A DNA stretch of 21,413 nt, from IMG/VR virus record IMGVR_UViG_3300020203_000110, positions 1 through 21,413 of that record; one strand, written 5' to 3'. This DNA comes from a virus. Below the pieces are notes generated by a model. It saw only the letters and a program-made list of their open reading frames with translations. It was not told where the DNA came from and did no database searches. Made by a program: the position numbers and the translations under genes. Positions 15,488 to 19,908 of the stretch are shown piece by piece (within the stretch, counting starts at the first letter, position 1; each line of letters begins with the position of its first letter).

Positions 15488-15913
15488 ATGCACGTCCGTA
15501 AGACCACTAACATCGAAGTTGTTCGGCGCTTAGACGATAAGCTATTCAAAGAAGACGCGGGGGATAAGCTATCAGGTAGCGCCAATCACATCTGGTGGCT
15601 GGCATACGTAGACGGTAAGATTGCAGGCTTCGCGGGCCTCCAAGTCTTCGCGTCTCAGAATTACGGCTACCTCCTGAGAGCCGGGGTACTCCCCGAGTTC
15701 CGGGGCCTCGGACTTCAGAAAGCCCTTATCGACGCTAGGGATCGGGAAGCCAAGCGGCTCAAGCTAGAGTGCAATATTACGTATACGGCGGCCTGGAATC
15801 ACGCAAGCTCAAACAACCTCATCGCTTGCGGTTACAGACTGTATACGCCTCAATATGCCTGGGGGCTTAAGCACGCCCTCTACTTTATGAAACAGTTTAA
15901 GTATCGGAGCTAA
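15488..15913 (+). CDS. GNAT-family N-acetyltransferase
   Basis: A 141-residue protein with the GNAT layout: a beta hairpin with DGKIAGFAGLQVF (residues 42-54), strand beta-4 and the acetyl-CoA loop at YLLRAGVLPEFRGLGLQKAL (61-80), and a motif-B region with NHASSNNLIACGYRLY (104-119). The pyrophosphate loop R72-G-L-G-L-Q77 fits RxxGxG/A except at the last position. GNAT enzymes transfer an acetyl or acyl group from CoA to amines on proteins, RNA, small molecules, or (Mu Mom and relatives) DNA bases. The substrate here cannot be read from sequence. It lies alone among lysis-region genes, preceded by a promoter-like motif and GGGAGA. Confidence 0.8.
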   Translation: MHVRKTTNIEVVRRLDDKLFKEDAGDKLSGSANHIWWLAYVDGKIAGFAGLQVFASQNYGYLLRAGVLPEFRGLGLQKALIDARDREAKRLKLECNITYTAAWNHASSNNLIACGYRLYTPQYAWGLKHALYFMKQFKYRS

Positions 15914-15915
15914 GC

Positions 15916-16230
15916 ATGTTTAAGTTTATCCTGGTCATTGCCGCCCTTATGTCCCCCGCCGCCTTCGGTAAGGGTATCCCTGAGTGCAACGCGATTGCAG
16001 AGCAGGCCAACGCCGAAGCCCAGAAGGACGGCTTTAAGTATATTGGCCAGCGCGGTCTTCCAGACGGTCAAGCCTTCCTCTGGGCTAACAAAGAGTCCTC
16101 CCGTATCCTCGTCTTCAAGCTTGAGAAGCTCCCAGCGTCTTCTAAGTTCCGCGACCTAGGCCAGTGTAAGGGCGGCAATGACGTCCTCGCCCACGTCTAC
16201 TCCGCCGAAGCTAAGAATGACGAGGCCTAA
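15916..16230 (+). CDS. Exported periplasmic protein, unknown
   Basis: A 104-residue protein that starts two bases after the GNAT stop. Residues 1-18 form a Sec signal peptide (MFKFILVIAALMSPAAFG) with likely cleavage after AFG. The mature part is about 86 residues and contains two cysteines (PECNAIAEQAN, LGQCKGGNDV) that could form a disulphide in the periplasm, a helix rich in Ala, Glu and Gln, and a beta part (QAFLWANKESSRILVFKLEK). I do not recognise the family. Its codon use resembles the capsid gene more than the tail genes (GCC, GTC, CTC rich), perhaps meaning good expression. A strong terminator follows ten bases after the stop, ending the transcript. Confidence 0.65.
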   Translation: MFKFILVIAALMSPAAFGKGIPECNAIAEQANAEAQKDGFKYIGQRGLPDGQAFLWANKESSRILVFKLEKLPASSKFRDLGQCKGGNDVLAHVYSAEAKNDEA

Positions 16231-16322: not shown

Positions 16323-16832
16323 ATGCATGCCGCGCTAGACAAACTATTTAGGGGGTTCGTAGTGGCCTGGGTCCTCGTCATACTATTGCTTATCGCGGAC
16401 CGTGCTTCAGCCTATACCCCTAGCGAAGGGCTCCGGCTGCTTGAGCCCAGCCTCCTCACGCTAGAGTATTACAAGATCGCTAACAACCGAGATGAGTACC
16501 TAGCAATTAACGACCGGGGCTCGTCTAAGTACGGCCCGTCCGATGGGGAGTCGTGGCGCTACGGTACAGCAGTTCGATTCAATATCGAACTGATTAAGTA
16601 CGGGGAGTACGGCCTGTACTGGAATAACCACGTCCATATGGCGGCTACTCAATGCTGCGTCCGGCATGTAGGCTGGGAGTTCGAGTGGGGGGCTCACGTC
16701 TCCAAGCATCTTGACCTCTTTTACTACCATCATAGTGAGCATATCATGGACGTCGAACGTCCGGCCCGTCGCTACCCCCTCGTTAATCAGTATGGCGTCC
16801 GTTTTATCATGATTCAGGAGGCACGTAAGTAA
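16323..16832 (+). CDS. Exported beta-rich protein, possibly outer-membrane (PagL-like)
   Basis: A 169-residue protein with a signal peptide (VVAWVLVILLLIADRASA, cleavage likely after residue 30). The mature part has alternating aromatic/polar segments typical of beta-barrel strands: GLYWNNHVHMAATQ, HVGWEFEWGAHVSKHLDLFY, and a final strand YGVRFIMIQ. It is unusually rich in His, Tyr and Trp. H136-H-S138-E-H, followed by IMD, resembles the His-x-Ser of outer-membrane lipid A deacylases (PagL), but the third catalytic residue and barrel length cannot be confirmed, and the protein is short. C111-C112 is a vicinal cysteine pair. It overlaps the collagen-like lipoprotein gene by TAATG, so the two are likely co-translated at the cell envelope. 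Confidence 0.6.
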   Translation: MHAALDKLFRGFVVAWVLVILLLIADRASAYTPSEGLRLLEPSLLTLEYYKIANNRDEYLAINDRGSSKYGPSDGESWRYGTAVRFNIELIKYGEYGLYWNNHVHMAATQCCVRHVGWEFEWGAHVSKHLDLFYYHHSEHIMDVERPARRYPLVNQYGVRFIMIQEARK

Positions 16833-17353
16833 TGGACATTATCAAGATTGTACTTAAGAGGGCCGGCTTTGAACTACTCATCCTCCTACTGTTTGTAACG
16901 GTCCTGCTTATGACCGGCTGCGGCGGGGAGAAGCAGGGACCGGCTGGAAGGCCTGGGGGCGATGGTGAGCGGGGAGATACCGGAGAGCCTGGTACCGAAG
17001 GCCCGGTAGGGGGTTCAGGCCAACCCGGCCAGGACGGGCGTAAAGGCCCCTCAGGCGCTTCCGGACCTAAAGGGGAGGACGGAGGCCAGGGGGAGATGGG
17101 ACCTCAAGGCTCGATGGGTCCTGAAGGCCCTGCCGGGGAGAACGGGGAGAACGGCGCGGACGCGATTATCGAGGTAATCGACCCATGCGGCCCCAGCGGC
17201 GACGGCGTTGACGAGATCCTATTCCGCCTCGGGACTGGGGAGATCGTGGCTTGGTATACGGGGGTAGGCCTCGTAGCACTCAGAGACGGTACATACGTAA
17301 CGACCGATAAGCAAAAGTGCCTATTCACAATCCAAGATGGAGACCTTCTCTAA
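16832..17353 (+). CDS. Collagen-like lipoprotein
   Basis: A 173-residue protein starting in the preceding stop (TAATG). Residues 13-29 are hydrophobic and end in the lipobox M-T-G-C30, so Cys30 would be lipidated. From G36 to residue 110 there are 25 uninterrupted Gly-X-Y triplets (for example QGPAGRPGGDGERGD), the collagen triple-helix pattern. Residues 111-173 are a small globular domain (IIEVIDPCGPSGDGVDEILF, then VALRDGTYVTTDKQKCLFTI) with two cysteines that may pair. The expected product is a trimeric rod about 20 nm long tethered to a membrane, with a head domain. Collagen repeats are common in phage fibres but rare in phage lipoproteins. It could act in superinfection exclusion, envelope spanning or surface modification; none is proven. 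Confidence 0.8.
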   Translation: MDIIKIVLKRAGFELLILLLFVTVLLMTGCGGEKQGPAGRPGGDGERGDTGEPGTEGPVGGSGQPGQDGRKGPSGASGPKGEDGGQGEMGPQGSMGPEGPAGENGENGADAIIEVIDPCGPSGDGVDEILFRLGTGEIVAWYTGVGLVALRDGTYVTTDKQKCLFTIQDGDLL

Positions 17354-17565
17354 TGCCAACGTACACCTATCAGTGTCAGAGCTGCGCCGCTATGCTCGAC
17401 GTCTTCCGTAAGATCGTCGATATGGACTTAGCCCCCGACCGTTGCGAGGCCTGCGGTAAAGAGCAGATGAGCCGGATCATGACGGCCCCTGCCGGCTTCT
17501 TTAGGGACGGCGGGCATAACGGCGAATATAACAAGACCGGGCCAAGGAAGGGGAACCGTAAATGA
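17353..17565 (+). CDS. FmdB-type zinc ribbon protein
   Basis: A 70-residue protein, MPTYTYQCQSCAAMLDVFRK at the start. ATG 17353 overlaps the preceding stop (TAATG). Cys8-x2-Cys11 and Cys31-x2-Cys34 form a four-cysteine zinc ribbon, with the 'P.Y.Y.C..C' opening and an APAGFFR segment near residue 46 that are typical of the FmdB family (putative regulatory zinc ribbons named after a formamidase-linked protein). The C-terminal 15 residues are basic and glycine-rich (KTGPRKGNRK) and could bind nucleic acid. Its role in phages is not known to me. The gene ends in ATGA overlap with the endolysin gene, suggesting translational coupling. Confidence 0.82.
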   Translation: MPTYTYQCQSCAAMLDVFRKIVDMDLAPDRCEACGKEQMSRIMTAPAGFFRDGGHNGEYNKTGPRKGNRK

Positions 17566-17993
17566 ACGTTAGTAACCTAGGCCTGCGCCTTATCCGCAAG
17601 TTCGAGGGCTGCCGGCTTAAGGCCTATCGCTGCCCAGCCGGCGTCCTGACGATCGGCTACGGCCACACAGGCCTCGACGTGGTTGAGGGTCTGGCTATCT
17701 CGGACTCTAAAGCGGACGCCCTCCTATCAGCGGACCTAGCCGTATTCGAGAAGGGAGTGCTCTCGGCAGTAGGTAAGACGGTCCTTACCCAAGGCCAGTT
17801 TGACGCCCTCGTGAGCTTCGCCTTCAACCTAGGCCTCGAAGCCCTCCGCAGGTCTACCCTACTCAAGCTCCTTAAGAAGGGGGAGATCCAAGCCGCTGCT
17901 AATGAGTTCCTCCTCTGGACTAAGGCAGCCGGTAGGGTACTCCCAGGCCTCGTAACGCGACGTAACGACGAACGTACCCGCTTTCTCAACTAA
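17562..17993 (+). CDS. Endolysin, GH24 (T4-type) lysozyme
   Basis: A 143-residue single-domain muramidase that cleaves the N-acetylmuramic acid to N-acetylglucosamine bond of peptidoglycan. The catalytic signature is E15-(8 residues)-C24-(5 residues)-T30, within KFEGCRLKAYRCPAGVLTIG; T4 has Asp where this protein has Cys, a variant known from other phage lysozymes. GYGHTG follows at 32-37, and the C-terminal lobe has QGQFDALVSFAFNLGLEALR and ends with TRRNDERTRFL, both conserved in the family. No signal peptide, SAR anchor or cell-wall binding domain is visible, so release should need a holin. It starts in the stop of the zinc-ribbon gene. Confidence 0.95.
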   Translation: MNVSNLGLRLIRKFEGCRLKAYRCPAGVLTIGYGHTGLDVVEGLAISDSKADALLSADLAVFEKGVLSAVGKTVLTQGQFDALVSFAFNLGLEALRRSTLLKLLKKGEIQAAANEFLLWTKAAGRVLPGLVTRRNDERTRFLN

Positions 17994-19707: not shown

Positions 19708-19908
19708 ATGTATAGAATCCTAGCCGCTCTAGTCCTGTGTAGTAGTCTTAGCCGGTGTAGTGGGGAGAGCGAGGCCCAGGAGGTCTTACCCTACGCTATG
19801 ACGTGTGAGCCAGCCCCCGCCGATGGGACGGCCGTTCGACGCTGCTTTAATACCGAGGTCGTGTGCTATATCCTTAACGAGAGTATTAGTTGTAGGGGGA
19901 CGGAATGA
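19708..19908 (+). CDS. Small exported cysteine-rich protein
   Basis: A 66-residue protein with AAGGAGG nine bases upstream. Residues 1-15 form a signal-like hydrophobic segment (MYRILAALVLCSSLSRC). Cys17 follows S-R, which is a poor lipobox, so either signal peptidase I cleavage or an atypical lipoprotein is possible. Four further cysteines (MTCEPAPADGTAVRRCFN, EVVCYILNESISCRG) could make two disulphides in the periplasm. No family recognised. It overlaps the next gene by ATGA. Small Cys-rich exported proteins are frequent among phage accessory genes of unknown role. Confidence 0.6.
   Translation: MYRILAALVLCSSLSRCSGESEAQEVLPYAMTCEPAPADGTAVRRCFNTEVVCYILNESISCRGTE

Follow-up and report, generated by a model that had tools for sequence, protein, structure and literature searches.

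An uncurated C-terminal domain common to phages and Bdellovibrionota marks a family of predicted envelope lipoproteins, one with a collagen stalk encoded in a phage endolysin operon

A C-terminal domain that no curated collection describes is common to varied phages and to the chromosomes of Bdellovibrionota (the group of the predatory Bdellovibrio), and it suggests a host for viral contigs that otherwise stand as orphans. The member examined here is encoded at 16832-17353 of the window, by which we mean the whole stretch of DNA analyzed, a 21,413-base IMG/VR virus record with portal, scaffold, major capsid and tape-measure genes. Its product carries the motif that defines the domain (hereafter the cap), both of its cysteines and, by rule, the N-terminal lipobox of the family; between them runs a collagen-like repeat. 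These proteins form a real, conserved family of predicted envelope lipoproteins in phages and Bdellovibrionota, for which a role in lysis or in superinfection exclusion is plausible. The surprise lies in the family and its link to a host, more than in the collagen repeat. The features of the gene are these:

16816-16821, plus strand: Shine-Dalgarno-like AGGAGG, 10 nt 5' of the lipoprotein ATG, read from the sequence
16832-17353, plus strand: open reading frame of the predicted collagen-stalk lipoprotein, 173 aa, with a 1-nt overlap with the gene on each side
16832-16918, plus strand: predicted lipoprotein signal peptide, residues 1-29 (hydropathy maximum 2.3 at residue 13)
16907-16921, plus strand: lipobox L-M-T-G-C, read from the sequence, with putative lipidation site Cys30 and Gly (not Asp) as the +2 residue
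16937-17161, plus strand: 25 Gly-X-Y triplets, residues 36-110, from triplet count and Pfam Collagen (about 21 nm if triple-helical)
17162-17350, plus strand: cap domain (IDPCG...DEiL...YvTTDxxxCxF), residues 111-173, from a 43-sequence alignment and AlphaFold2

The reading frame, coordinates, strand and start are as the earlier note on this DNA gave them, with the AGGAGG before an ATG at 16832 that shares 1 nt with the upstream stop codon; the gene's own stop in turn shares 1 nt with the ATG of the downstream gene. A positively charged n-region and then a hydrophobic core precede the lipobox LMTG-C30, in which the Met at -3 is tolerated although other residues are commoner there. Lipidation of Cys30 is predicted by rule, and the lipobox is kept in homologues, in agreement with the lipobox cysteine that the note had named. 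In a six-frame scan under a relaxed rule this is the sole credible lipoprotein of the window; the two other matches were dismissed as antisense frames within structural genes. (At 19708-19908 a 66-aa, cysteine-rich predicted exported protein has an imperfect lipobox, LSRC.) The 173-aa sequence has no LPXTG cell-wall anchor of the kind found in Gram-positive Scl-type collagen adhesins. In enterobacteria, a +2 residue other than Asp is linked with sorting to the outer membrane, a rule not established for Bdellovibrionota. Of the 38 family lipoproteins detected by rule, 26 have Gly at +2 and just one has Asp, so that sorting to the outer membrane is suggested for the family by the enterobacterial rule, and the product of 16832-17353 probably resides there.

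The twenty-five perfect triplets claimed earlier are indeed exactly 25 and consecutive, and no other Gly-X-Y run in the six frames of the window reaches six triplets. The chance expectation of such a run is about 1e-24, given that Gly makes up 7.8% of the remaining window proteins. The product matches Pfam Collagen at 43.6 bits, above the cut-off of 27.2; NCBIfam repeat models match the repeats only, far under cut-off. By analogy with other collagens, the stalk may form a triple-helical trimer. Known phage collagens are fiber proteins, those such as EPclA carrying tail-fiber domains and being proven trimers (PMC3368898), and most PHROG matches in the repeats are to tail fibers, which could point to a collagen component of the virion, in a tail or head fiber, despite the lipobox-like start. 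Those PHROG matches are restricted to the repeats and just beyond, however, and a PHROG search with the cap alone yields no tail match. A lipoprotein signal, kept through the family, stands where a fiber would have its N-terminal fiber domain; the cap genes lie outside tail modules in the relatives examined; and homologues are chromosomal in bacteria. A virion fiber is, on this evidence, highly improbable.

The columns of Cys119 and Cys163, spaced 44 residues apart, hold Cys in 43/43 aligned family sequences, which supports the earlier description of the C-terminal domain as disulfide-capable; the two probably form a disulfide. The AlphaFold2 model of the cap is a small six-stranded all-beta fold (pLDDT 86.5). 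Fold searches of PDB and BFVD return nothing at E<=0.001, the cap is without a model in Pfam, PHROGs or NCBIfam, and solved structures include no relative detectable by sequence or profile. The periplasmic protein CopK, considered as a fold relative, reached a best second-look Z of 4.2, too weak to use.

Neither the whole protein nor the cap found a significant match among phage records (as expected for the whole protein, given its low-complexity collagen part); the whole window found none among phages by megablast, and a single-sequence cap scan of viral contigs gave no relatives. A degenerate motif built on the final ~65 residues, by contrast, revealed further cap-bearing phage proteins, and alignment-based scans of viral contigs, run with closer subsets of the cap alignment, added further copies. 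The search for homologues and their neighbors that the earlier note had proposed thus uncovers a cap family in phages and Bdellovibrionota, with 28 distinct viral copies and carriage by 21 of 369 Bdellovibrionota genomes. A general scan of 84,980 bacterial and archaeal species, of limited sensitivity, produced just two confirmed matches, both in Bdellovibrionota, and at that sensitivity the cap may occur more rarely outside the group. A strict lipoprotein rule is passed by 38/53 cap proteins; the other 15 are mostly truncated at contig ends, masked in sequence, or possessed of a lipobox visible by eye that the rule missed, and nearly all full-length cap proteins therefore appear to be lipoproteins. 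The proposal of a membrane-anchored collagen lipoprotein encoded by a phage is supported, with the lipobox kept and the genes outside tail modules, but the protein is a family member rather than a singular case.

Judged from sequence, what defines the family, across phages and Bdellovibrionota chromosomes alike, is the C-terminal cap rather than the collagen. The stalk is collagen in the window, L003, L013, L021 and L103; it is coiled coil, as judged by eye, in L014, L085, L087, L088, L094, L095, L102 and L106; and L008 has almost none. The stalk of cap lipoproteins is interchangeable, with collagen as one option and the cap as the constant part. That either collagen or coiled coil can join the anchor to this unchanging cap amounts to a clean natural experiment on what the stalk must provide.

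The bacterial copies sit amid ordinary chromosomal genes, outside prophages, with neighbors (named from translations) that include clpA/clpS, rpoN, gcvT/gcvH, argG/argH, clpP/clpX/lon and msrA/msrB. In the chromosomal cap lipoproteins L060, L049, L042 and L046, all from Bdellovibrionota, collagen alternates with repeated SCxVxE..GAlIxCxDG modules, and L060 passes the cut-off for Pfam CFSR (collagen-flanked surface repeat). Bacterial adhesins often contain collagen-like repeats. Together with the NCBIfam repeat matches and the collagen and CFSR modules of the chromosomal lipoproteins, this could suggest a surface adhesin or fitness factor, in which the phage copy of a Bdellovibrionota surface lipoprotein would change how the infected cell attaches, aggregates or interacts with prey, or would keep progeny and debris in one place. 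Such a factor would bring little evident benefit to phages that mostly do not integrate, however, and the cap has no ligand-binding match, which leaves an adhesin decidedly unlikely. Lysogenic conversion as a general explanation was rejected, an integrase being present in just 1/27 cap-phage records.

A tree of 49 cap sequences, built on 71 columns only and with many forks unresolved, needs 5 changes between phage and bacterium labels against 16 in shuffles, which indicates that the phage copies belong for the most part to long-standing phage lineages; at least one clade is mixed. The window cap falls inside a viral clade (support 100/95) with L003, L008, L013, L082 and L100. Six cap-bearing records, the window included, have the window's capsid type at high score, and five of the six belong to this clade; in a seventh, G386, the capsid match is weak (E 2.6e-7). 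None of 38 further records that share the capsid type, several of them short fragments, has a cap gene, which makes the gene accessory. L151 (G162 C299:1-16875), probably a prophage within a Bdellovibrionota genome, has terminase, portal, scaffold and capsid in the order seen in the window's phage group, at 20-31% identity. This capsid relative lends modest support to a Bdellovibrionota host, which we infer for the window phage; few described Bdellovibrio phages were found in the literature searched. The window's 721-aa tail protein has no relatives found, and hence no close-relative locus was available for comparison.

The window opens with a portal gene cut at its 5' end, followed by the scaffold, major capsid and tail genes; an 850-aa tape-measure protein and further tail genes come next. 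After these stand a GNAT acetyltransferase, a pair of predicted exported proteins, the lipoprotein itself, then an FmdB-like zinc ribbon and a GH24 lysozyme. The acetyltransferase gene (15488-15913) lies directly upstream of the operon, in which the lipoprotein gene has these neighbors:

15916-16230, plus strand: 104-aa predicted exported protein, no family match
16323-16832, plus strand: 169-aa protein with an N-terminal hydrophobic helix, predicted exported
17353-17565, plus strand: FmdB-like zinc-ribbon protein (Pfam Zn_ribbon_8, 39 bits)
17562-17993, plus strand: GH24 phage lysozyme (endolysin), two genes downstream of the lipoprotein gene (Pfam Phage_lysozyme 4e-46, PHROG endolysin 3e-59)

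Start and stop codons overlap throughout the four genes from the 169-aa protein to the lysozyme, which makes co-translation of the lipoprotein with the endolysin very likely; such coupling implies late expression. The 169-aa neighbor, whose gene overlaps that of the lipoprotein, has a histidine- and aromatic-rich region, folds poorly from its single sequence apart from helix 2-29, and has no homologues in phages or in the 369 Bdellovibrionota genomes.

Against this setting we tentatively favor, at somewhat less than even confidence, a Bdellovibrionota-type outer-membrane lipoprotein that is made in the infected cell and acts on its envelope at the lysis stage. Lipidated Cys30 would be the anchor in the outer membrane, three chains would join through the collagen stalk into a rod of ~21 nm, and the small all-beta cap, shut by a Cys119-Cys163 disulfide, would top it. 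The protein would be produced in the infected cell as no part of the virion, with the cell envelope, and the outer membrane in particular, as its target; after peptidoglycan cleavage it may assist in disrupting or opening that membrane, and so do the work of a spanin while being another type of protein. What favors a lysis-stage role is the endolysin operon of the window, together with a transglycosylase and small membrane or exported neighbors in relatives. An SLT transglycosylase lies within 2 kb on the same strand as the cap gene in 6/11 contigs that have one above cut-off, against an expectation of 0.8 contigs (P ~4e-5, at a distance picked after the pattern was seen). Genes up to two places from a cap gene have a hydrophobic or signal-like segment in 31% of cases, against a background of 15% (permutation p 0.0012). 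The earlier suggestion that the protein might act in lysis has gained support from these neighborhoods, with the role itself a tentative reading of them.

Two further kinds of gene occur in cap-bearing phages. ClpP-like serine proteases are encoded at L068:1271-1969 and L070:10643-11365, with members also in L062, L082 and L094; the L068 and L070 copies start like signal peptides, so an exported protease may adjoin or lie near the cap gene. A predicted lipoprotein matching PF18894 (putative phage metallopeptidase) stands next to the cap gene or two genes away at L062:12293-12733 and, weakly, at L106:7088-7663.

Counting against a lysis role, a murein hydrolase is nearby in a minority of cap-phage records (six with SLT, plus the window); in several, among them L062 and L066, two of the window's nearest capsid relatives, an endolysin-like amidase is ~13 genes off, on the opposite strand. 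The stalk ranges from almost none to long, which ill suits a fixed ruler and so weakens the idea, raised in the earlier note, of a rod that spans the periplasm. The periplasmic length of spanins is itself highly variable (PMC6139136), and a variable stalk accordingly lowers the standing of a lysis role without removing it. The existence of chromosomal homologues means that the cap domain is not intrinsically a lysis protein.

Many cap genes sit amid replication or early genes, which likewise counts against lysis, and no neighbor is universal. This early context, in genomes mostly without integrase, sits well with the main rival to lysis, akin to the receptor block raised in the earlier note, in which the cap binds an outer-membrane receptor, as in superinfection exclusion or receptor modulation, and blocks the adsorption of further phage, or adsorption to debris. 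T5 Llp offers a precedent, a small phage lipoprotein with a Cys11-Cys58 disulfide that blocks FhuA from the periplasm (PMC9586334); the spacing of the cap cysteines resembles that of Llp, and the accessory distribution of the gene, missing as it is from the 38 further same-capsid records, fits equally. Yet the cap has neither a sequence or profile match to solved structures nor a clear fold match, the window gene is coupled to the endolysin operon with its implied late expression, and action of the Llp type needs no long stalk. We hold exclusion to be somewhat unlikely.

If either role is true, these viruses would possess a collagen-based envelope device. At its boldest, the lysis proposal posits a new class of lysis proteins that phages place in the outer membrane: homotrimers anchored by lipid, with a stalk of either collagen or coiled coil and a disulfide cap shared with the host, which replace the spanin in Bdellovibrionota phages; as a whole we think this unlikely. 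The gene does have one trait of an o-spanin, a predicted lipoprotein gene near an endolysin gene, but no clear type-II membrane coiled-coil protein, as for an i-spanin partner, adjoins it in the window (a fragment, in which the 169-aa neighbor has just an N-terminal helix). The lack of a C-terminal transmembrane segment, despite the lipobox, rules out a unimolecular spanin; the highest 19-residue hydropathy after Cys30 is 1.06.

Set beside known systems, the window protein resembles spanins (Rz/Rz1 and unimolecular) as a predicted phage outer-membrane lipoprotein, encoded close to an endolysin gene, with cysteines in its putative periplasmic part, but it differs from them in having, with no C-terminal transmembrane segment, a folded cap with bacterial homologues and a collagen stalk. 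With T5 Llp and T1 Cor it has in common a small phage lipoprotein with a disulfide-closed soluble domain (shown for Llp, and probable for the window protein), but it is stalked, bears no detectable relation to solved structures and lies in a late or lysis context. The EHEC prophage tail fibers EPclA/B likewise combine a Gly-X-Y stalk, sometimes a coiled coil, and a terminal globular domain; they carry phage tail-fiber N- and C-terminal domains, whereas the window protein bears a lipoprotein signal and a cap unlike theirs, and its gene is not part of the tail module. The MAT fibers of Bdellovibrio are also trimeric, fiber-like surface proteins of the same bacterial group (the window trimer being drawn by analogy), but they belong to a different family, of trimeric beta-prism fibers with a ~130-aa N-terminal beta-rich domain (PMC10769870); the main text of that paper mentions neither collagen nor lipoproteins. 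The closest counterparts are the chromosomal cap lipoproteins of Bdellovibrionota (L041, L049, L054 and L060, for example), which have a lipobox signal peptide, the same two-cysteine cap and, in most, Gly-X-Y segments, as the window protein does, and which differ in being longer in most cases, frequently with CFSR or DUF7151-like modules separating the collagen segments, and in sitting among housekeeping genes with no phage genes beside them.
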